Source: Escallonia rubra (taxonomy: Eukaryota > Streptophyta > Magnoliopsida > Escalloniales > Escalloniaceae). From it: a stretch of 64,000 bases of DNA. Both the position numbers and the translations under genes were made by a program. The notes under the pieces are model-generated. The model ran no database searches. It was not told where the DNA came from and saw nothing but the letters and a program-made list of their open reading frames with translations. Each line of letters starts with the position of its first letter. Positions within the stretch are counted from its first letter, which is position 1. The DNA is taken from positions 372,001 to 436,000 of the forward strand of contig JAVXUO010001352.1 of NCBI GenBank assembly GCA_033065855.1. The letters run 5' to 3'. Shown piece after piece: positions 1,920-54,124 of the stretch.

Positions 1920-2475
1920 TACTTTTCTTAAACATAACAGTGTGTGCAGTTATATAATTTAGATGAATATACGGTCGATTTGACTTTTGAGTAGTCTTTG
2001 CTTTTATTTTTCTTTTTTTGGATTAAGTTTGTATGAATTGAAGAACCACGTCGTTTTGACTTCTCTGTTATGTTTTTGACCACTTTGTTTTATCTTTTTT
2101 AACGGCAAATAAGGGAAACGAACATAATGTGAGGAAGTAAAAAAAGTCTGCTCATTTTATTTTTACTTTGTTTGTTTGTTTGTTTAGGGCTAATTTATTA
2201 GTGAAGGGATGATGACTTTATTTTTGTTGTTTGGTTAAGTCAATGGGAAAAAAATGATTCTAACAGTTATACCATATTATCCTTTTAAAAGTGCATGTAT
2301 AAAAAAAGAAAGAGTGAAATGAGTAGTCACGGCTGTCATGCCCTTTCCGCTCTCTATCTACTTTATAATAGAAAGAAAAAACATAAAGCCCCGTAAGAAA
2401 ATATATCCCTCCTCTATTCACTCTACTAGTTAAGGGACCCATGTTCACACACAAATTCCTTAATTTTCTAGAATA
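1920..2475 (-). promoter_or_regulatory. Diverged copy of the lectin-kinase upstream block
   Basis: This AT-rich stretch aligns collinearly with 9350-9915, the region upstream of the lectin receptor kinase that starts at 8756. Shared landmarks in the same order are ACTTTTCTTA, GATTTGACTTTTGA, TGAAGAAC, TTTTGACTTCT, GTGAGGAAGTAAAAA and GGATGATGACTTTATTT. It keeps several TTGAC cores (W-box type), near 1979, 2059 and 2078. Because the downstream copy belongs to a minus-strand gene, this block would be the promoter region of a gene lying to its left. That space is now occupied by the copia relic. I infer a tandem kinase copy that was disrupted, or one lying beyond the left edge. Confidence 0.55.
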
Positions 2476-2844
2476 CACTCTTTCTACTTGTTATAAAATT
2501 ACAAGAACACAATTTAAATAGATATGTTACTAAATTATGATAGATATTTGAAATACTATTGAAGAAAATAACTATAAATTTTATTTGAGTGCTTTTAAGT
2601 AACAAAATACACTACTTGGCACATGTCACGTTGATTGTTTTAAGTGAAAAATGAAGTATCAACAACTCTACCACTGTGCGAGATAAAAAATCATCGTGTA
2701 GACTCTTGATGCTTTCACACGAGCAATACCTTGGGCATTCTATCACCAGAGAGACAATATCTTAAAATCATATTGACGGTCAATTACACTTAGCACTCCT
2801 GAAGTTTATCCACAAATGCACGTGACTCCCCCTATTTATTTTTA

Positions 2845-4058
2845 GGGCTAATTATACTTATGTCCCTGAGGTTCGGGTATAATTACAGGCAATGACAATA
2901 GTTTGGACAAATTACACCTATGTCCATTGACCAGACGAAATCTTAAAAAAACCTAACGGTTTGAACAAAATGACCTTATTGCCCTTATCTTGGAAAGTTA
3001 ATTTTTTTCAAATGCCATTTCCTCTTGTTAAAAAAATAAAATCATAAAGAAACCCTAATTTTTAAATCTAAACTTTACTCTCTCTCTTCCCCCGCCCTGC
3101 CACCGCCAGCCCGACCAATACCCCGTCGATCGCCCCCGCCACCGCCGCAGACCTCACCCCGGTCACCGCCCTGTATGTGGCCCTGGTCCCCAACCCGCCG
3201 CCACGCTGTTGATTATGTCATCCGTCTCCCTAAGCAACATCATCCTGCTCTTCATCCCAGCGTACAGTAGCCCGATGACCCCGGCTCGGTTGTCGAGCCT
3301 CCGACCAGCGTGGCCCGAAGCGTTCAAGACCTGGTTCACGTGCAGCTTCAGCGTGTCGCGGGGCTCGAACGCCTTGATGCTTTCCACGAGGCCCTTGCCA
3401 GTGCCAGTGACGAATCCGGAGAGGTAGCCGATGCCGTTTCTTAGTGAATGCGGGCACTCCCTCACCCTACGCCGACAGTTCCATTGTCCCACGCCACCGT
3501 TTCAGATGTTTCCTTATGACCATTTCACCTCCCAAATTAAGCCTAAAACTTGGAAATTAAACGTCTTTGTAGGTACCCCAAGGGAAACCGATAATACAGA
3601 TCTTTGCAGTTGAAGGAGCCTTATTCCTGAATGAAAGAATTAGGGTTTTAAAACCCTAATTTGCAGATTAGGGTTTCAGATTGAGAAAAATTAGGGTTTT
3701 GTTTTGCATATTGAAATTTTTTTGACACCCTAATTCACAGATTGAGCAATTTTCGATACCTAATTTGCAGATCCCCCAAGATCGGCACTGGGCGACGGAC
3801 TCTTCTAGGAGAAGGTCAAAACCCTAATTTTTAAATTAGGGATTTTCAAAACAAAATTAGGGTTTGAAATCTTAAAAAAAAAATATACAGTATAAGGGCA
3901 GTATTGTCATTTTAAAAATACGTAATGATGAGTTCAAATAAAACGTACACTTTTTGGACGGAACCTTAACAGATGGACACGATTGTTACATTTTGAAACT
4001 TATTATCCTTGAGACTGTAATATCACCCTAACCTCAGAAACACTGCTGTAATTAGCCC
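2845..4058. mobile_element. Mutator-like element (Pack-MULE type), non-autonomous
   Basis: Both ends start with GGGCTAATTA, and the imperfect terminal inverted repeats run for about 45 bp (roughly three quarters identical by eye). A perfect 9-bp target duplication, TTATTTTTA, flanks it at 2836-2844 and 4059-4067, as expected for the Mutator superfamily. The element is 1,214 bp and has no transposase. Its middle (about 3070-3500) is much richer in G+C than the rest and holds a TIM23-like fragment. The segment at 3640-3870 has several copies of the telomere-like word AAACCCTAA or its complement. The perfect duplication argues for a fairly recent insertion. Confidence 0.85.
3163..3492 (-). pseudogene. 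Captured fragment of a mitochondrial TIM23-like gene
   Basis: A minus-strand open frame of 109 codons reads like the central part of plant TIM23, the channel subunit of the mitochondrial inner-membrane protein import complex. Recognisable words are GYLSGFVTGTGKG, DTLKLHVNQVLNASG, AGVIGLLYAGM and LRETDDIINSVAAG, in the order expected for the Tim17/Tim22/Tim23 family. Plant TIM23 proteins are nearly 190 residues, so both ends are missing. The fragment lies entirely inside the Mutator-like element, in a G+C-rich island. The likely explanation is transposon capture of an exon. The identification rests on my memory of the family and not on a database search. I see no sign that it makes a functional protein. 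Confidence 0.72.
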
Positions 4059-4636: not shown

Positions 4637-5242
4637 TGGAGGTGAGCACGGTTCGATTTGGGGGTCAAACCGTAAACCAAACCGTTATCCCTCGGTTTGA
4701 AAATTTATGAACCGAACCAAACTAAAAACTATCGGTTTAGTCAGTTTAAACGGTTCGGCTTAGTCGATTTGGATCGGTTTGTCCACTTATAGACATTGTT
4801 CCTTTGCACACTACTAATTGAAGTTATATTTTTTCTAAATTGCATATAATCTTGTTTTATTCGATATATAAGTCTTCATTGATGAATAAAAAAGAATGAG
4901 TAAATATAAAATAGATATTGGTCACAAAATTTTTGTTTCTAAGTGTTGTTAATATTTTCGTTTCTTTAACTTTCAAGATTTATTTATTTGGAGTTGCTTA
5001 GTGCATTATATGTGTAATTATCAATGGAATGTTACTAAAAATACATTAACATATCATCGGTTGGTTCTGTTCGGTTTGGAATCGGTTTCAAAAATGTGAA
5101 CCGTGAACCAAACAGAACCAAGGTTGGTTTGGAAAATGTGAAACCAAACCGTTAAGATCTTTGGACAATTCAGATTGAATTGATTCGGTTTGGTCGATTT
5201 GAGCGGTTCGGATCGGTTTGAACGGTTTAGTGCTCACCCCTA
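4637..5242. mobile_element. hAT-type non-autonomous element, copy 1
   Basis: The ends are TGGAGGTGAGCAC and its near-complement GTGCTCACCCCTA, giving an imperfect 13-bp terminal inverted repeat. They are flanked by a perfect 8-bp target duplication, ATTATCAC, at 4629-4636 and 5243-5250. That size is diagnostic of the hAT superfamily. The subterminal regions are packed with CGGTTTGGTT/AACCGAACC-like words on both strands. At 606 bp it has no transposase. A longer and more decayed relative is at 19604-20324. Confidence 0.85.
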
Positions 5243-6659: not shown

Positions 6660-8756
6660 TTATTTTGTGTACAAAAGCGACGCTGATGGAGAAGAAGAGG
6701 CAGAAGATACGGTGAACTGTGATGACTCCGTGTTGTATCCATAGCTCGAGGAGTGAGTTTGGTTCTTCTCATGACCATCGGCACCGTAAGACACAGAAAA
6801 TGAATATGTTGGGGGAGCAAAATACGTCGCTACTGGCATCTTTGGAGGAAAAATGGGTAGTAGAGGGTCACAGTTAAGGATCGGAATAGCTTGCTTTATG
6901 GATGAACGAAGCTTCGAATCCGGGTGAGCACACCAAAGCCCAACAACCATTAAGCGCTCCATTTCTTGTTCATCAAAAGTTGCGCATAGTTTGGGATCCG
7001 CTGCTGTAAGGAGCTTTCCCTTACCATAGAGGTCCCAGACCCACTCTACCAGTCTTACTTGGCTCTCTTCTGCCCTAAATTCAATAGGTTTTCTTCCGCA
7101 AGCTATTTCCAAAGCAACCACACCAAAACTAAAGACATCTGATTCCTTTGTAGCCTTTCCTGTGACAACACATTCTGGAGCCATGTAGCCTAGTGTCCCC
7201 GCCAAAATAGTTGTTTGCGGTCCTTGATCATGGTCAACAAGCCTAGCTAAACCAAAATCTCCAAGTTTGGGGTTGAAATTTGAATCCAGCATGATATTGC
7301 TCGACTTTATGTCCCTATGCACGACACATTGCTCCCATTCTTCGTGCAGATAGAGCAACGCTGACGCCACGCCTTGAACGATTTTGTACCTTACCTCCCA
7401 TGTCAACAAGCTCCTGTTTTTGAAGAGATGGGAATCTAAGCTGCCATTTGCCATGAACTCATACACAAGTAGCAGTTCCTTCCTCTCGTGGCACCAACCA
7501 ATGAGTTGTACCAAATTCCGATGCCTCAACCGGCTAATTATCTTTACCTCTGCTGCATACTCCTTTATCCCCTGTTTAGAGTTGCTTGACACTCTTTTAA
7601 CAGCAACATAGGAGCCCAATTCCTTCAAGAAACCTTTATATACCCCACCAAACCCTCCCTCTCCAAGCTTCTCTACCTCCGCAAAGTCAGAAGTTGCATG
7701 TGCTAATTCATTGTATGAAAACTTCTTCGGTCCCGTACCTCTTTCAAATTCGCTGTCCATGCCCACATCAAAGCCAAGCTCCCCGTCATTTTCCTCTGTG
7801 CGCCTTTTCCTCCTAAATCCAAAGAAAATGGAAGCCAATCCACCCACCAAAACGCACAATCCAACACTCAACCCAACCACAAGTCCTGTCTTTGTTGTTG
7901 GCCCTTTGTTAACACCAATCCGTAGATCTGAACTGTTAAAGCTCCATGATTTGACAGTATTTGTTTCCAAATATAATCCTGTTGCGGCACTGAAGCCGAA
8001 AATAACCCATTCAGGTAGTTCCTTCCTCAGATCAACAATGTAATTAAGGCCATATTGCTTTATTGTCACATTATTCTGATAACCGGTAAAAACAACACTA
8101 AGATTTTGCGAAGCTGAATCGTAACTAATCCAAGCTTCATTTTCACCCCCTTGCGTAATATTACTCAACCCATTTTCAAATTTTGAAGATACAAGAGATT
8201 TGATGTTGATACCTGCATGATCGCCTACCGGATAGAAAGAGCTATCAATTGGATCCCAATCTTTATGCCAGTATGTGTCAAACTCCACTGCAACAAATTG
8301 ATAACTTGCCCGACGTGTCACAGGATCAATCGGAAGGCCCAATGAGAAACCTGGTGAGATTACTGAATCATTAGGAGCCAAAAAGAAAGCAAACCCATCT
8401 GCATACGGAGTACTTCCACGTGAATCAATGACAAACTTGAAATTGGTACTGAAGTCAGCCAGCTCTCCTGTAGCACTGTCCCAAAGGTGCAGAGGTCGGA
8501 TATATGTGGCTCGACCGGCTTTGTGGAGCTGATCCGTCCCTCGCTCGTCTGTGGTGAGTTGGATACCTTGGCTTGAGATGTACGAGCCGTTTTCGACATT
8601 TATGTCTGTTGAATGTTGTGGTCCAATATTAGGAAAACTGAAGGTCAGTGGAGTTGCACAAGGGATCACAAGAAAGAAGTAGAAGGTGATCAAAGAGAGA
8701 GAGTAGCAAAGGTTAGGTGGTCGGGAATCAGTGTTCAAAGAGGTGCAGCAAACCAT
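6660..8756 (-). CDS. L-type lectin receptor kinase (LecRK-IX type), 698 aa
   Basis: An intact, intronless receptor kinase of the plasma membrane. Residues about 16-35 form a signal peptide. Residues 37-278 form a legume-lectin ectodomain with ADGFAFFLAP and VAVEFDT. A transmembrane helix follows at about 291-313, then a basic stop-transfer (RRKRR). Residues 359-630 form a Ser/Thr kinase with GEGGFGGVYKG (365-375), lysine K387, HRD (480-482), DFG (500-502) and APE (526-528), so it should be catalytically active and of the RD class. The C-terminal tail is Ser-rich. The Asn usual in the legume-lectin Ca/Mn site after EFDT is not there (His164/Lys165), so sugar binding is doubtful. The length is normal for the family. 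The start is an ATG in ACCATGG. Family members act in defence and development. The ligand is unknown. A second copy lies 3.1 kb to the right on the same strand. Confidence 0.96.
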   Translation of the reverse strand: MVCCTSLNTDSRPPNLCYSLSLITFYFFLVIPCATPLTFSFPNIGPQHSTDINVENGSYISSQGIQLTTDERGTDQLHKAGRATYIRPLHLWDSATGELADFSTNFKFVIDSRGSTPYADGFAFFLAPNDSVISPGFSLGLPIDPVTRRASYQFVAVEFDTYWHKDWDPIDSSFYPVGDHAGINIKSLVSSKFENGLSNITQGGENEAWISYDSASQNLSVVFTGYQNNVTIKQYGLNYIVDLRKELPEWVIFGFSAATGLYLETNTVKSWSFNSSDLRIGVNKGPTTKTGLVVGLSVGLCVLVGGLASIFFGFRRKRRTEENDGELGFDVGMDSEFERGTGPKKFSYNELAHATSDFAEVEKLGEGGFGGVYKGFLKELGSYVAVKRVSSNSKQGIKEYAAEVKIISRLRHRNLVQLIGWCHERKELLLVYEFMANGSLDSHLFKNRSLLTWEVRYKIVQGVASALLYLHEEWEQCVVHRDIKSSNIMLDSNFNPKLGDFGLARLVDHDQGPQTTILAGTLGYMAPECVVTGKATKESDVFSFGVVALEIACGRKPIEFRAEESQVRLVEWVWDLYGKGKLLTAADPKLCATFDEQEMERLMVVGLWCAHPDSKLRSSIKQAIPILNCDPLLPIFPPKMPVATYFAPPTYSFSVSYGADGHEKNQTHSSSYGYNTESSQFTVSSASSSPSASLLYTK

Positions 8757-9349
8757 GGTGATGAAAGAAGCTTCTCAAGGGGGCTATGATCAGTTTTCCA
8801 GTATCAAGCTTTGCCAAGTGTTTGGTATAGAAGTGATTTACAAATCACGAAGAAACGATTAATCTACTCTCGCAACAATTGCTCAAGCTGCTAATTCACA
8901 GATATAAAATGAAGCAGGTAACATGAATTTGTGATTGGAGATGAATGTAAGAGCTGAAAGCAACCATGCGTCAAGGAGATGAATGGCTTGTTACAGCAAA
9001 AGTCCTGGCGGTTGCTAAAATAAGTGAACTTTTCTTGCTGCTCCCCAGTGCTCAACAAGACTTGGCTTTACTATTTTTGTCAAAACACGCGTTTGCAGCC
9101 ATAGCTTACTCATTCAACTAAAGCGACTGAAATTTTCAAGCTACCCAATATTGATAAGCTTTGCGTCACTATCATTAAGGTTTCTTCTAGACCGGCGCCG
9201 GTCAGCTACCATTTGCACTTCACTTGCTCGAGAACTTCAACATTTTTTCAGATTCGCTGAAATTCATTTCCAGAAATGTAGAGATACTATTTGCTTAGAA
9301 TTTTTGGTTTATGTGTCTTAACAAATTTTTTTGCCCCTGCTATTAATAT
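8757..9349. other. Immediate upstream region of the first lectin kinase
   Basis: The 5' flank of the minus-strand kinase gene. On the minus strand a TATA-like ATTTTATATC lies near 8901-8910, about 150 bp before the start codon. This is a plausible but unproven core promoter. I see no other gene. Confidence 0.4.
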
Positions 9350-11862: not shown

Positions 11863-14004
11863 TTAGCGTGCTATAAGAAGGGATGTAGATGTAGAAGATG
11901 CTTCAGAAGATGCGGTGAACTTTGAGGAATCAGTACTGTCGTTATAACTCGACAACTTAATTTGGGTGCTCTGAGAAGCAGTGGCACCAAAGGCTGAAGC
12001 TTGTGAAGATAACAGATTTATGGCTGACGCGGTGAGATATGTTGCCACTGGCATATTCTCTGGGAGGACAGGCAATGGTGCTTCAAAATTAAGGACATGA
12101 AGTGCTTGCTTGATCGAAGGCCGAAAATGGCGATCTGGGTGAGCGCACCAAAGCCCGACAATCATCAAGCGCTCCATTTGTACCTGATTGAAATCTTCTG
12201 AGAGGTTTGGATCAGCTGCTTCAAAGATATTTCCCGATCCATACAGGTCCCAAACCCACTCGACCATTGTCATTTGACTTCCCTCATACTTGGGGTCGAT
12301 GGGTTTCCTTCCGCATGCTATTTCCAATGCCAAAACTCCAAAGCTGTAGGTATCTGATTCCCTGCTAGCTTGGCCTGTGGCGAAATATTCAGGAGCCAAG
12401 TAGCCCATGGTCCCTGCCACCATCGTTGTTTGCGCTCCTTTTTCGTGGTCAACAAATCTAGCTAACCCGAAATCCCCAAGTTTGGCATTGAAGTTTGAAT
12501 CCAGCATCACGTTGCTCGACTTGATGTCCCTGTGCACCACGCATTGTTCCCATTCTTCGTGCAAGTATAGCAATGCTGACGCCAAGCCCTGAGCTATCTT
12601 GTACCTTACCTCCCATGGCAGCATGCTCTTCCCTTTAAAAAGATGGTAATCTAAGCTACCATTTGGCAAGAATTCATACACAAGAAGAAGCCCTTTCTTC
12701 TCATGGCACCAACCAATGAGTTGCACCAAGTTTTTATGTCTCAATCGGCTAATAACTTTTACTTCTGATGCGTACTCCTTTACTCCTTGTTTAGACCCAC
12801 TTGATATCCTCTTGACGGCAACATAGGATTTCGATTCCTTTAAAAACCCTCTGTATACTCCGCCAAAACCTCCTTCTCCAAGTTTCTCCTGCTGCCCAAA
12901 GTTATTCGTGGCCCGAGCCAGCTCTTTGTAGGAAAACCTCTTGGGTCCAGTACCTTTTTCAAACTCATCGTTCATGTTTTCATCAAAACCATATTCGGCT
13001 TCATCTTTTCTTGACTTCTTCTTTTTCCAAAGAGCAAATAAGGCGAGTCCCAACACACCAATCACAACAGATACACCAACCACCACTCCAACAATAATTA
13101 CCATCTTATTTGGGCTAGGCGTAGGCGCAGGCGCAGACGCAGGGCCAGCTACCGCTGGATTTGTTGAATTTACTTTTTCAACCATTCCAAGTGTCGAACT
13201 AAAACTCCATGCGTGAATTCTATGCACGGCTGTTGCATTTTTTCCCGTTGCAGCGGAAAAACCGAAAGTGACCTGATCTGGCAAGTAATCTCTTAAATCA
13301 ACTATGTACGAAAGGTTTTGATACACAGTGGCATTGTTTCTAAAACCGGTGAAGATAACACTGAGAGTTGTAGCACTAGAGTTGTAACTAACCCAAGCTT
13401 CATTTCGTCTTCCCTCCAAAATGCTATCAGTTATCCACCATGTCACGTTGGTAGCAGATTGTAGAGAGTTGATATCAATACCTACATGCTCACGTTCTGG
13501 GTCCCATTCTGGATCCTGAAAGATATCGAACTCAACTGCAACAAATTGATTGGCTGTAGAATTCAATGGCTGATTTGTGAGGGCTAGGCTGCCTCCTTTT
13601 TTTGGATTAAACGGAAGTCTGGAACCGGCTGGCGCAAGGAAAAAAGTCAACCCAGCACCATAAGTTGTACTTCCTTGCGAGTTGATGGTGAAAGAGAAAT
13701 AGGTGGTGAAGTCGGTGAGGTTTCTTGAGGCCTTGTCCCAGAGGTGCATGGGGTTCGTAAATGTAGCTCGACCTACCCTCGCAGCGGTATTTAAGTCGTT
13801 CTGGTTTGTGACGAGCTGGATTGTACCATCTGCTGGATAAGCTCTCTCATAGGAAATTCTTTTACCATCATTGGGTGCAAAACCAGTGAAGTTGAAGGAC
13901 AAAGGAGCTGCAAAACAAGGGATTATCAGGAAGAACAGTATTAGTATGAAGAAGGGAGGATGATGGGTCGACTGGAGATGAATTTCAGCGCTGCAACCAA
14001 CCAT
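11863..14004 (-). CDS. L-type lectin receptor kinase (LecRK-IX type), 713 aa
   Basis: The second tandem lectin receptor kinase, intact and intronless. I start it at the ATG of ACCATGG (14002-14004), which gives MVGCS, parallel to MVCCT of its neighbour. The longer open frame begins at a TTG. Parts: signal peptide about 12-33, legume-lectin domain about 34-270, a Pro/Ala-rich stalk (about 285-299) not seen in the first copy, transmembrane helix about 301-326, and basic KKKKSRK. The kinase has GEGGFGGVYRG (376-386), K398, HRD (491-493), DFG (511-513) and APE (537-539), so all catalytic residues are present (RD type). In the lectin metal site EFDIFQDPEWDP replaces the usual Thr and Asn, again making sugar binding uncertain. 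The kinase domains of the two copies are very similar. The ectodomains differ more, as expected for diversifying sensors. Confidence 0.96.
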   Translation of the reverse strand: MVGCSAEIHLQSTHHPPFFILILFFLIIPCFAAPLSFNFTGFAPNDGKRISYERAYPADGTIQLVTNQNDLNTAARVGRATFTNPMHLWDKASRNLTDFTTYFSFTINSQGSTTYGAGLTFFLAPAGSRLPFNPKKGGSLALTNQPLNSTANQFVAVEFDIFQDPEWDPEREHVGIDINSLQSATNVTWWITDSILEGRRNEAWVSYNSSATTLSVIFTGFRNNATVYQNLSYIVDLRDYLPDQVTFGFSAATGKNATAVHRIHAWSFSSTLGMVEKVNSTNPAVAGPASAPAPTPSPNKMVIIVGVVVGVSVVIGVLGLALFALWKKKKSRKDEAEYGFDENMNDEFEKGTGPKRFSYKELARATNNFGQQEKLGEGGFGGVYRGFLKESKSYVAVKRISSGSKQGVKEYASEVKVISRLRHKNLVQLIGWCHEKKGLLLVYEFLPNGSLDYHLFKGKSMLPWEVRYKIAQGLASALLYLHEEWEQCVVHRDIKSSNVMLDSNFNAKLGDFGLARFVDHEKGAQTTMVAGTMGYLAPEYFATGQASRESDTYSFGVLALEIACGRKPIDPKYEGSQMTMVEWVWDLYGSGNIFEAADPNLSEDFNQVQMERLMIVGLWCAHPDRHFRPSIKQALHVLNFEAPLPVLPENMPVATYLTASAINLLSSQASAFGATASQSTQIKLSSYNDSTDSSKFTASSEASSTSTSLLIAR

Positions 14005-15050
14005 GGTCAACAAAAGATTTAGGTGCTAAGCTTGCTTAATTGCCATAAAGGTGGTTTATAGCAGCACTTGCTTTGCAGCTTGTTGGGTAGTCGTTTATCT
14101 TGCTATTTTTCAGAAATTAGGCAAGCATTGTTTACTCAGTACTCAACTGATAAACGACTGCCCTTTTGTTGCATTCTCTTGTTTTCTCTTTTTGTATCCT
14201 GGCATGTGTCAAATTCTTAGGTAATTCTTAATATGAACCAACTCTGAACAAGTCTTTAAATTTGGCCCTTCTTTCCGCAAATAGCGTTGGAGTTGCGGGT
14301 CTCTTCTAGTTTTCTGGTGCGTTAGATTTGGCTTGTCCCAAAATTTTTATATGCTGCAATTGCCATATCATAAACCAAACGCATGCACCTTCACCAGACC
14401 CTAGCTACCATCGATTCTACGAGCGCGTTTTTTGTCAAAACCTAAGTTTTATGCATACATACATGTATATATATATACACACACCTATATATTCATATTC
14501 GAATGACATCGTTCGGAGGCTGATACGACTGAGGTTGGGGGGGTGGTTAGGTTAAAGGTGGGAACAAATAAAATAGCTATGGCAAGTGAAGGATCAAATG
14601 CCGTCTCCTTGATGTATTCTGGCGTTACATGCATCACAGAAGGCGATTTATCTAGATGGAAAATTCCAACAATTTGTCATCTGACCATATAGGATATGGC
14701 AGGTATATCTGTGTTTGGATTACATGATTTTGAGGTGGATGTGACGGACGGATTCAAGTATAGAATAAGGGCAAGGGAACATATTTCTGCCGTCTGCTTA
14801 ATGTATTGTGCCCACCCTTCATTAATGAAGACGATTCCACTCCACGGGGGATTCCAATATTCGAAGGTGATGTATGGCCTATTAGGATACCGCGTATGCT
14901 TGGATTACATGTCGTGGTGAATATGAAACAGATGCAGGTGGTAAGTTCAAGGTGGGAAGAAGTTATCGTAAGAGGTCATTTGAGATTGATTTATTTACTT
15001 CAAGTATAATGGATTAAAAGTTATTGAAGGTATTTAAATAAATATAGATG
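14005..15050. other. Upstream flank of the second lectin kinase; no gene seen
   Basis: It does not show the block shared by 1920-2475 and 9350-9915. A (TA)/(CA) run lies near 14460-14485. Two weakly similar stretches (about 14580-14650 and 14768-14840, both with TGCCGTCT..TTGATGTATT-like words) suggest an old local duplication. I find no convincing coding region. Confidence 0.5.
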
Positions 15051-15064
15051 CACTACAAGAAAAC

Positions 15065-15365
15065 CAGCTTATGCCTACGGTACAGTACCGTAGGTATAGG
15101 TGCCATGTCCCGTAGGCATAGCCTATCCCTACGGTACTATACCGTAGCCAGAAGTGGCGATGCCCTAGATCTATGCCTACCGGGGTTGAAGGTTATGCCT
15201 ACGGTTATACCGTAGCCCACTTATTTTTATAGCTATGCCTACGGTACTACCGTAGGCATAGCTGTATTCTTATTTTTATAGCTATGCCTACGGTACTACC
15301 GTAGGCATAGCTGTATTCTTATTTTTATTCCCAACCTATGCCTACGGTACATACCGTAGGCATAG
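15065..15365. repeat. Subterminal palindromic repeats of the CACTA element
   Basis: At least six copies of the word TATGCCTACGGTA, most followed at once by its complement TACCGTAGGCATA so that each forms a hairpin. Matching words (ACCGTAGGCATA, ACCTACGGTT, ACCGTAGGCC) lie at the other end, about 18180-18235. In CACTA elements such repeats are the binding sites of the TnpA-like transposase protein. Confidence 0.85.
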
Positions 15366-16114
15366 CTCCTTATTTGTCAAAAAAAATATTTACAAAATCA
15401 TTTCCATGCTATCACTACACCCCTGCCAAGCACCAACTTATAGAACTGCTACTGCAAGATCAATAGATGCACCAGTAAGGGAACCATAATCATGCCAATC
15501 AAATTAACTAAAATCACAATGCTTTAGGGACTTAACTCTATAGTTTAGCCAAATGCATAACAATCTCGTGGAAGAAGGTTAAGATAGGTAATAACAAAAA
15601 GCATGCGATACAAGTATTAAACTTCAATAGCGTATACGCTATTCCACTGTACACTAAAATGATGCTTGGGATTCAATCTAACCCCCATATTGGTGAAGCA
15701 ATTAATGACAAATCACACTCCACGCAATAGTGAAAGGATGCTTGGGATTCAATCTGCATGCATTGCCTCATAATCAAGTTGAACAGAGGCTGCACCCTGT
15801 TTGCACCTTCTATAACAACTTAGCATGATCCCGCAGTATACAATATTCTAACTTAATCAACTCTTGAATTGAGAGCTATGATATGCCCACCATCTAGTTA
15901 ACGAAAGAGAAGAATAATCGTCTAATGCAAGAATAACATCAACCATACATAAAAGAGACTGCAAACTTAAACCAGAAAACCAACATTGCTTTACGAGATT
16001 TCATAGACAATTGATTTGTTAAGAATGAATTAAGCTTCCAAATTCAGACTTCAATTTTTTTGATAATTTACTAAAATTATTCCTAAGAAAGCGCCAGGGG
16101 TGCAACCCTGTACA

Positions 16115-16315
16115 CTAAAATGACTCAGAACATTCCCTACAAACCCCACAAGGCTTAGTTTTGTTGCTGGCAAGACAATTCAAAGCAGCAGCTAATACTC
16201 TTGCAGTTGATGTCTTTCCAGTCCCACGGGGACCTTGGAAAAGATAAAGAGAAGCAACCCTTCCCCTAAGAATAGCATTCATGAGGGACTGAACCACAAT
16301 ATTCTGCCCAATCAT
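16115..16315 (-). pseudogene. Captured exon of a STICHEL / DnaX-like gene
   Basis: The 66-codon minus-strand frame matches the conserved core of plant STICHEL and STICHEL-like proteins. These resemble bacterial DNA polymerase III gamma/tau subunits and, in Arabidopsis, control trichome branching. Key words are IGQNIVVQSLMNAI, the Walker A motif GPRGTGKTS and a Cys cluster CGVCREC (start of the zinc site). The family proteins exceed 1,000 residues, so only a few percent is present. It lies inside the CACTA element and antisense to the protease fragment. The match is from memory of the family but the motif set is distinctive. Confidence 0.82.
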
Positions 16316-16429
16316 GATTGGGATTCAATAGTAATTTGCAAGCGTAGTTGGTTTTACTAACAATTCAGTGATCAGAGGAGTTATGACACATTCTGAGCAT
16401 TTTCAGTTTCAAGTGCAGAAACTGAAAGT

Positions 16430-16560
16430 GAATGGTTGCTCCACATGACCTTGTCGGCATTGCAAGGTCAAGCAAGGGTCAGATGTACAAAGGCTTCATC
16501 CCTTGTTTTCTAAGGAGATTTTCATCGCATTGCCGTGTCTCATTGAAGCAACACATGACT
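16430..16560 (-). mobile_element. SINE-like fragment inside the CACTA element
   Basis: The words AAGGGTCAGATGTACAAAGG and CCCTTGTTTTCTAAGGAGA recall the body of a widespread tRNA-derived SINE of eudicots. The ends are not clear and the A and B boxes are not convincing, so this is a tentative call. Confidence 0.35.
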
Positions 16561-17124
16561 TTCAACATTTCAAAGAAACTCCATATTCTTTGAATTTAGT
16601 GAGAATACTGACCACTCAGAAATTGTTACTCCACCAATTGAACGACCCTTTTGCGTTAGAAGAAGATTAGAAACAAAAAGAAAAAAAAAACAAATAGAAA
16701 AATGAACGTTCAAGGTGCCTCAAAGACTAAATGAATGTTCAGCGTGCCTAAATGAATTTTCATTCTTGAGGCAATAACTCGCTCTCCATGTTTATGCTTC
16801 CCAGTTGTAGCTATCATGCTTACTTTCCGTGCCATTACAAACACTTATTGTCGTATTTTTTTGGTATCATGAACGTTAAACCTCCATTACTCTGACTTTG
16901 CCACTCAGCATGCATGGATGAATGAACAGCTACGGTGAAAGCAATTGCAGCCAAAAGGAACATCCAGTTCAATACAAGACAGAGAACCTGTCTATACTTA
17001 AAGAAACAAGTAGAAAAGAGCAAGACCTCATCTTTTAAATTACACTATCATCGCACATGTTCGACTCAAAGCATTTTATCAGGCACGTTAGAAATCATTT
17101 CTTTCAAAGACAAACAAAAAGTTT

Positions 17125-17460
17125 CTATATAAAGCTCAACATTAGTGCTGAAGTACGTATACCACCAAACATTGCAACTCATCAGTTAATCTGCTAGTAC
17201 TACCACCATGGCTTCCAAGAACCAGTACCAGTTCATAATGCTTTGCAATGCTCTTCATCTTGGTAACCTTAGCTTCTCACGCTACATCTCGTTCTCTCCC
17301 CGAGGCAGCCATGCATGAGAAGCATGAGCAGTGGATGACTCGCTATATATGGTTTGTCGAGAGCTCATCGTCGCTTTGGCCAGTAGTAACAGACAACCCA
17401 CCTTGGCCATCACCACTACTGGTTAGCAAAGGTATAAGACCTAGTAGAAACTTGGCCTAA
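17125..17460 (+). pseudogene. Captured promoter and 5' end of a papain-type cysteine protease (SAG12-like)
   Basis: A TATA box (CTATATAAAG, 17125-17134) lies about 75 bp before an ATG at 17208 (MASKNQYQF). About 40 bp later the frame shifts by one and continues from 17248 as MLFILVTLASHATSRSLPEA, then MHEKHEQWMTRY. This is the usual signal peptide and the start of the I29 inhibitor propeptide of SAG12-type senescence-linked proteases. Similarity ends soon after, and the catalytic domain is missing. The frameshift and truncation make it a pseudogene. The retained promoter means the element could still be transcribed from here. It lies in the CACTA element on the opposite strand to the STICHEL piece. 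Confidence 0.72.
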
Positions 17461-17589
17461 GATTGCAAGAGCACGAATAGAGAGAGAGACCGGGACAAAT
17501 TCGCAGAAAGAACAAGAAGAAAGTGTAAATTGGAATTGGAAATTGAATGAGAATTGTTAACTGTGGAGTGGCTTAATTAGGCTGAAGAG

Positions 17590-18175
17590 GAGATCGGAAG
17601 TGCACTGTTGCCGCAGACATGGGAAATGAGAGAAACTAGAAAACTTTTGACTGACAGGGGAAGGTGCACTATTGCCGCACCAGTCGTCAACGAGTCCCCG
17701 CCGCCGGAGTCCTCGCCTCGCCGTCGACACTCGTTGATCAGTCTGCCCGTCACTGCTTCTTCTAAGGTCACCGTTCATCAGCGCGTCGTCACCGGGGAGG
17801 GTCATTGGCCGGTGGAGTTCTCGCCTTCACCGGTCACTGCTTCTTCTTCGATTGTTGTTCCAGATCTGAATTTGAAGACGGCGTCGGACCTCGGTAGTCG
17901 AGTCCACCGGTGAAGTCCTCTCCTCGTTGTCTTGTTCGTTCCAGATCTGAGCTGAGCTCTGCCAAAAAGAGTCAACTCGAGGAGTCCCTGCCGTGTCCGT
18001 GTCCGTGTCTGTGTCTCTCTGTCGCCCGTCGCCCGTCGCCCGTCGCCCGTGAGTGTTGCTGTCTGCCTGTCTGGGAGTGGGTGAGAGTATTTGGCAACTG
18101 GGCAAGTCTCAGAGAGAGAGATAGACCATGTGACTGCTCTTCCAAACTGAAGCAGCACGAATAGCCACGGTGCAA
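17590..18175. other. G+C-rich segment of unknown origin in the CACTA element
   Basis: The base composition (rich in CCG, GTCG and CGCC) differs sharply from the AT-rich DNA around it and resembles the leader or first exon of a host gene. It includes a short tandem CGTCGCC run near 18020-18048. Open frames occur on both strands but none matches a family I know. It may be a third captured fragment. Confidence 0.4.
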
Positions 18176-18266
18176 TATGAACCGTAGGCATACATAACTT
18201 GTACCTACGGTTCCTTTTATACCGTAGGCCTTCTTGTCACCATAGGTCAGTTTTGGTGTAGTGATG

Positions 18267-46178: not shown

Positions 46179-46228
<50 letters not shown>

Positions 46229-54073: not shown

Positions 54074-54124
<51 letters not shown>

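Follow-up and report, generated by a model that had tools for sequence, protein, structure and literature searches.

Stepwise assembly of host-gene cargo in a Pack-type CACTA element of Escallonia rubra, with a probable route through internal repair

How a transposon without transposase coding comes to carry pieces of unrelated host genes is the question raised by one locus of Escallonia rubra. The stretch analysed, hereafter the window, comprises 64,000 nucleotides (contig JAVXUO010001352.1, positions 372,001 to 436,000). At 15051-18263 it contains a non-autonomous CACTA element that is flanked by ATG target duplications, has subterminal repeats specific to its family, and carries host-gene cargo. 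The cargo derives from three parent genes, and sister copies at separate loci preserve successive stages of its assembly: a long STICHEL piece, a trimmed STICHEL piece, an intron patch, a protease replacement, and an exchanged 5′ end. We consider it probable that this is a Pack-type CACTA element whose cargo was built stepwise by templated, microhomology-guided repair of breaks inside element copies and spread by transposition.

Element ends, family, and class

The 5′ terminal inverted repeat CACTACAAGAAAA (15051-15063, plus strand) has an inverted partner with 2 mismatches, CACTACACCAAAA (18251-18263, minus strand), and ATG stands on both sides (15048-15050 and 18264-18266; target duplications, palindromes, and fillers are given without strand). 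The terminal repeat pattern alone (13 bp, up to 2 mismatches) does not exceed chance, occurring 4 times in the window versus a shuffle mean of 3.34. The element is taken as real because the 64-kb window has 17 CTACGGT/ACCGTAG motifs, of which 15 fall within the element's two subterminal regions (12 at 15075-15353 and 3 at 18181-18221), because a search of the 566-Mb genome for its first 30 bases, allowing up to 2 mismatches, gave 183 places versus 0 for the reversed control, and because identical 3-bp flanks were observed in 17 of the 18 family copies with both ends recognised. Ends had been sought in 20 copies; C909 and C1041, whose 5′ ends were not recognised by the pattern, are excluded from this count, and the sole flank mismatch is C744 (AAA/GAA). 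These results bear out the clean CACTA ends and ATG duplication described in an earlier sequence-only reading of the locus. The family sample comprises 14 aligned copies and 20 checked for ends, versus about 183 family 5′ ends in the genome, and all counts from genome searches are lower bounds, with only the best candidates scored (for example, the best 40 of 776 in one search).

Two parts of the element belong to the family itself. The 5′ end (15051-15634, plus strand; element positions 1-584) contains the 12 subterminal motifs and is of a type that we call subfamily A, with 97-98% identity to 24 other listed places. The G+C-rich 3′ region (17446-18263, plus strand) contains the other 3 motifs. 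The sequence-only reading had suggested that this segment could be a third gene capture, a suggestion that we abandon, as it proved to be the multi-copy 3′ region of the CACTA family (best 40 of 244 candidates scored); the demonstrable third capture is a piece of an intron of a DUF6825 gene, which that reading lacked. The G+C-rich segment might still represent an old capture inherited by the whole family.

With terminal inverted repeats beginning CACTA, a 3-bp duplication, and subterminal repeats in both orientations near both ends, the element belongs to the CACTA (En/Spm) superfamily. Helitrons have neither target duplications nor terminal inverted repeats, and both are present here. Pack-MULEs are recognised by 8-9 bp target duplications and Mutator ends; the element has a 3-bp duplication and CACTA ends. 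The Pack-CACTA class is indicated by the absence of transposase coding (the longest listed open reading frame overlapping the element has 129 aa, in a list of frames that was profile-scanned in part), by the three parents elsewhere in the genome, and by transposition together with the cargo, as five closely similar bodies occupy five loci with the flanks ATG, AGA, GAG, TAG, and GAT. It is thus an ordinary Pack-CACTA element of a known kind, unusual in the completeness of its stage series and in its readable junctions.

Irregular family members were also observed. One copy (L067, on C1138) has two successive family 3′ ends at 4831 and 5852, each followed by CTT, with a repeated 3′ segment, possibly a product of one-sided transposition. 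Three subfamily-A copies (L053, L063, and L068) contain an internal CACTA-like end of another type (CACTACAACAAAACTGGG), as in a nested element or a mosaic.

Parents of the cargo and the order of assembly

The sequence-only reading had recognised parts of at least two unrelated host genes, a STICHEL/DnaX-like P-loop exon on one strand and the TATA box and start of a SAG12-like protease gene on the other. Both sources were confirmed, and the search for parent loci yielded genes with long open frames elsewhere in the genome. Intact parents are thus present, and the fragments are not scattered over many loci outside a CACTA context.

The P-loop exon piece (16115-16314, minus strand) matches its parent at C2081 with 98.5% identity. 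A second piece of the same exon (17349-17445, 97 bp, minus strand; 95.9%) lies downstream of the captured promoter and antisense to it. Both pieces derive from one open frame of 743 aa at C2081, here called STICHEL-like, with computed DNA polymerase III delta′/AAA and DnaX lid domains. The four other STICHEL-like places found show 49-57% protein identity. The genome search located the STICHEL piece in 11 element copies and at one gene locus.

The protease cargo (16329-17346, 1,018 bp, plus strand) contains about 880 bp of upstream region and the start of exon 1 of a SAG12-like cysteine protease. It differs from its parent, C142:120023-121035, at 16 of 1,012 sites and from another member of the same array, C142:147776-148804, at 44 of 1,016. 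The parent encodes an I29 propeptide and a papain domain, and matches outside elements are confined to the C142 array and two short 80% matches (C2020 and C1873). A sequence read as TATA-like, TATATAAA, is located at 17126-17133 (plus strand), presumably the TATA motif of the captured promoter, and the start codon at 17208. The protease features named by the sequence-only reading were present, although the interval it gave, 17125-17460, was not that of the capture and takes in 17349-17445, the second STICHEL piece.

The third cargo (15694-16118, 425 bp, minus strand) matches C2784:76880-77304 with 98.6% identity and is antisense to that gene on the plus strand. In the parent it lies in an intron, between a transit-peptide-like exon and those encoding a DUF6825 protein (the exons were joined by eye). 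The genome search placed it at one gene locus and in 7 element copies, one of which has just 44 bp of it. Since the captures hold intron and upstream sequence, they were made from DNA.

Two other blocks in sister copies were considered as further captures. The middle block of C744 and C1138 is at most a possible capture, with parts common to many other places (best 40 of 213 candidates scored). The extra 608-bp block of C524 (L057, about 833-1441) was rejected, being a high-copy repeat (best 40 of 1,811 candidates scored). It has inverted ends and an 8-9 bp duplication and is nested in the sister CACTA copy; we read it as hAT-MITE-like (MITE, miniature inverted-repeat transposable element). 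A short duplication alone is therefore no proof of patch repair. In C909 the intron patch lacks inverted ends, and outside the family copies it was found solely at its gene locus.

The sister copies can be arranged in a series. C1456, flanked by TAA/TAA, has 878 bp of contiguous STICHEL exon. C2128, C1719, and C524 have the same left join as C1456 and retain 477 aligned bp, contiguous as in the parent C2081. In C909, the intron patch lies beside STICHEL, with C2128 positions 5-2302 all kept and a 10-bp overlap at the insertion. In the window copy, C231, C2295, C1881, and C1111, the protease lies inside STICHEL in place of about 175 bp. Among these five siblings only the window copy has the 584-bp subfamily-A 5′ end, which the other four match at 83-88% over 366 bp. 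C1171 also has an A-type 5′ end, with a different left interior and a deletion of its own.

Two observations fix the direction of assembly. The uninterrupted state is that of the gene, and C909 shares with the window group a 1-nt deletion (frame ending CSESF) that is absent from C2128, C1719, C524, and the gene. The reverse order, with C2128 as a derivative of C909 that lost its cargo by deletion between 9-bp repeats, was rejected: C2128, C1719, and C1456 keep a gene-like run, GAACTCAG, in which C909 lacks one base. The gene reads CTGAAATGAACTCAG at this site, with one base different further left. Another family copy, C933, has apparently lost its cargo and retains a 14-bp remnant of the intron piece (L061, about 2731-2746 in element orientation); with this remnant, C933 is unlikely to be a pre-capture ancestor.

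Junction scars and explanations of the capture

The joins between the pieces carry distinctive scars. In the window copy only, an 18-bp palindrome, AATAGCGTA/TACGCTATT (15626-15643), joins the subfamily-A 5′ end to the body; past the join, none of the 8 other loci read with this 5′ end continues in the same way. It is followed by a filler (15644-15693) in which three locally templated snippets, traced to the rest of the window copy or to C909, explain 47 of 50 nt. None of 2,000 random 50-mers from the window reached 47 of 50, and 38 showed any match. The 15644-15693 join was found by pattern in three of the five siblings (window copy, C231, and C1881), seen separately in C2295, and detected in C1111 as a 99% match across the join. 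At the left STICHEL-protease join, a 16-bp palindrome, CCCAATCA/TGATTGGG (16307-16322), is followed by filler up to 16328; it is intact in four of the five copies, with one change in C1881. The palindrome includes a T found in all five pre-protease copies read and not in the gene, indicating that an element copy served as template. It continues into TTGGGATTCAAT, which is also contained in the intron piece. Perfect 16-bp palindromes start at 47 positions in the window, 40 of them in three runs whose starts overlap and 7 isolated, and two of the isolated ones lie exactly on the two joins. Runs of overlapping palindromes near 46182-46211 and 54074-54079 are, judging from positions alone, probably AT-type simple repeats.

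Other joins show related features. The intron patch is bounded by what we read as microhomology, GAA and CTAA, and about 9 bp of the element are duplicated there. C1171 has lost 148 bp (element positions 1228-1375), and a locally copied stretch of 42 bp fills the gap. The pattern used for the right protease-STICHEL join did not detect it in C744 or C1138. Snap-back and templated filler are typical of polymerase-theta repair. Taken together, the microhomology, snap-back palindromes, and local filler at several junctions point to error-prone break repair inside existing elements.

For this repair route we infer the following sequence of events. DNA breaks or gaps would arise inside resident element copies during transposition, excision, or replication. 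Synthesis-dependent end joining of the polymerase-theta type would then copy stretches of host genes and of the element into the break, and each new version would be spread by later transposition. Mobility would presumably depend on transposase supplied in trans from elsewhere in this CACTA-rich genome.

Several observations weigh against this route. The proposed enzyme is judged from the type of scar only. The right protease-STICHEL join and the join of STICHEL to the 3′ region have at most a few ambiguous bases. When the 14-nt filler at the left protease join was compared with C909, the longest exact forward match was 7 nt, a length reached by 1,240 of 2,000 shuffles. This sequence is read as filler on the strength of the 16-bp palindrome and of its match to the intron piece inside the window copy. 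The pieces have diverged unevenly from their parents, by 1.4% for the intron, 1.5% and 4.1% for the STICHEL pieces, and 2.3% for the protease. Moreover, comparison of the window copy with C231 (L002) gave 1 difference in 1,505 sites over element positions 594-2100 and 31 in 1,094 (2.8%) over 2101-3213, a contrast that a simple single-lineage history does not predict. An autonomous partner sharing the subterminal repeats was not identified; the one candidate examined, C853, was rejected: the subterminal repeat at its CACTA end is another one, and the 3 kb that were read contain no CTACGGT motif. Finally, a similar nested series has been interpreted as tandem fusion (PMC8903248).

The divergence of the 3′ part was examined among the siblings. 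Pairwise differences among the five (ten pairs) over element positions 2297-3213 are 1.6-3.7% and show little relation to core divergence. Single-copy changes within this group number 85; C-to-T and G-to-A account for 50 of them, 15 at CG sites, and methylation-driven decay may contribute to the divergence. Gene conversion from the nine other aligned copies is not supported as a cause, since at 40 of 48 two-state sites the minority base occurs in the five siblings alone; this comparison set aside 3 multi-state sites and all gapped columns, and unsampled copies could have been donors. Exchange with such copies or assembly error may add to the 3′ divergence.

Tandem fusion is the rival that survives best, and we regard it as unlikely. 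In this published model of Pack-CACTA formation (PMC13317346, PMC8903248), two copies flank host DNA, lose complementary terminal parts, and move as one hybrid that includes the host DNA. The abundance of transposase genes and family copies in this genome would allow it; Transposase_21 matches are numerous (best 150 of 2,228 candidates scored). However, the intron patch would require element halves overlapping by only about 10 bp, and for the protease the halves would have to stop just some 175 bp short of each other, within one and the same captured exon. The stretches scanned around the parents (L049, L050, L051, L059, and L064, with L070 left out) contain no CCTACGGTA/TACCGTAGG motif, which is weak evidence because insertions can excise. 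A CACTA end near the protease parent (L049 position 7486) has different repeats and was rejected as a member of the same family.

A second rival concerns why the cargo was kept. Transcripts from the protease promoter, antisense or chimeric, might regulate STICHEL or the protease array, with the cargo retained for this function. The promoter region, the TATA-like box, and the start codon are indeed preserved, and five of the eight copies with a start codon keep a chimeric frame of 81-83 aa, consisting of 46 aa of protease followed mostly by antisense STICHEL. However, the frame is broken by frameshifts in the window copy and C1111 and by a deletion in C1171. The window copy retains a frame of 36 aa (17208-17318, plus strand, stop included), and with its protease start thus frameshifted, a chimeric product like that of the five sister copies is not expected from it. 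A putative transcript from the captured promoter would be antisense to only the 97 bp of STICHEL at 17349-17445. With its position about 0.8-1.0 kb upstream of the TATA box, the P-loop piece (16115-16314) would fall outside the predicted transcript. The proposal in the sequence-only reading that the retained promoter runs antisense to other cargo therefore holds for the short piece and fails for the P-loop piece. In addition, the 50 C-to-T or G-to-A changes are as expected of silenced, methylated DNA. We consider a retained function improbable.

An assembly artefact, in which unrelated contigs were joined inside the window copy, is more improbable still. The window copy has a 5′ end of another type than its four closest siblings, and its 3′ part is more divergent than the core, as a misjoin might produce. 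However, the same body with its joins recurs at four other loci with different 3-bp duplications, and the join unique to the window copy is an 18-bp palindrome, unexpected from a simple misjoin. The weakest rival, the copying of spliced host transcripts into the element, is practically untenable, being neutral for STICHEL, which lies within one exon, and refuted both for the DUF6825 cargo, which is intron sequence, and for the protease cargo with its roughly 880 bp upstream of the start codon, the answer to the intron check that the sequence-only reading had proposed.

Related systems and implications

In the window, the element lies about 1.0 kb upstream of a legume-lectin receptor kinase frame (11866-14025, minus strand), the second of two consecutive frames of this kind (the other at 6663-8774, minus strand), each with both domains within a single open frame.

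Ds elements offer a precedent for internal rearrangement of a cut-and-paste element by faulty repair, as proposed here; Rubin and Levy are said to have traced Ds formation to abortive gap repair in 1997. Ds belongs to the hAT superfamily, and host-gene cargo is an addition in the present case.

The closest likeness is to the Pack-CACTA and Pack-TYPE elements of Arabidopsis, rice, and maize (Gisby and Catoni 2022, PMC8903248), which share the CACTA ends, 3-bp duplications, lack of a transposase frame, and host pieces from several loci. PIF cluster 18 of that study shows nested internal insertions in related copies, like the series described here. Unlike the elements in the passages of that paper drawn on, the window family has parents, intermediates, and base-level junctions together, and its scars speak for patching inside the element more than for tandem fusion. 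Animal Pack-TIRs, which arise by gap filling or fork stalling with template switching, resemble the element in internal replacement within an element with terminal inverted repeats and in breakpoint microhomology (PMC8277862). They are mostly single-copy, with four multicopy reference-genome cases and one fly family in the passages drawn on, whereas the window family is multi-copy with several successive patches. In maize Helitrons, gene fragments are added singly, as inferred from related copies and as found here, but these are rolling-circle elements with other ends (PMC3288121). The Cactavine-5 copies of grapevine likewise are CACTA elements carrying a host-gene piece in opposite orientation, with antisense regulation proposed; in the passages drawn on, they differ in having one PPR-type cargo and no described capture intermediates (PMC2528002). 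We found no report of snap-back filler in Pack-CACTA in the open literature searched, which is no proof of absence. Capture by plant cut-and-paste transposons is still described as a proposal, namely tandem fusion (PMC13317346).

For two captures the window family offers copies from before and after the event. Together with the parents of three cargos and readable scars, these allow the differing predictions of competing capture models to be examined on sequence already available. The family further illustrates how a promoter and gene start can reach new places beside unrelated coding sequence. Whether Pack-CACTA cargo is generally assembled by repeated snap-back, theta-type repair inside copies and not by fusion, with the element acting as recorder and ratchet, is a broader proposition that we hold to be evenly poised. 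If internal repair is the true route for Pack-CACTA, host-gene snippets would be patched into earlier captures, and this could be tested base by base in the window family.

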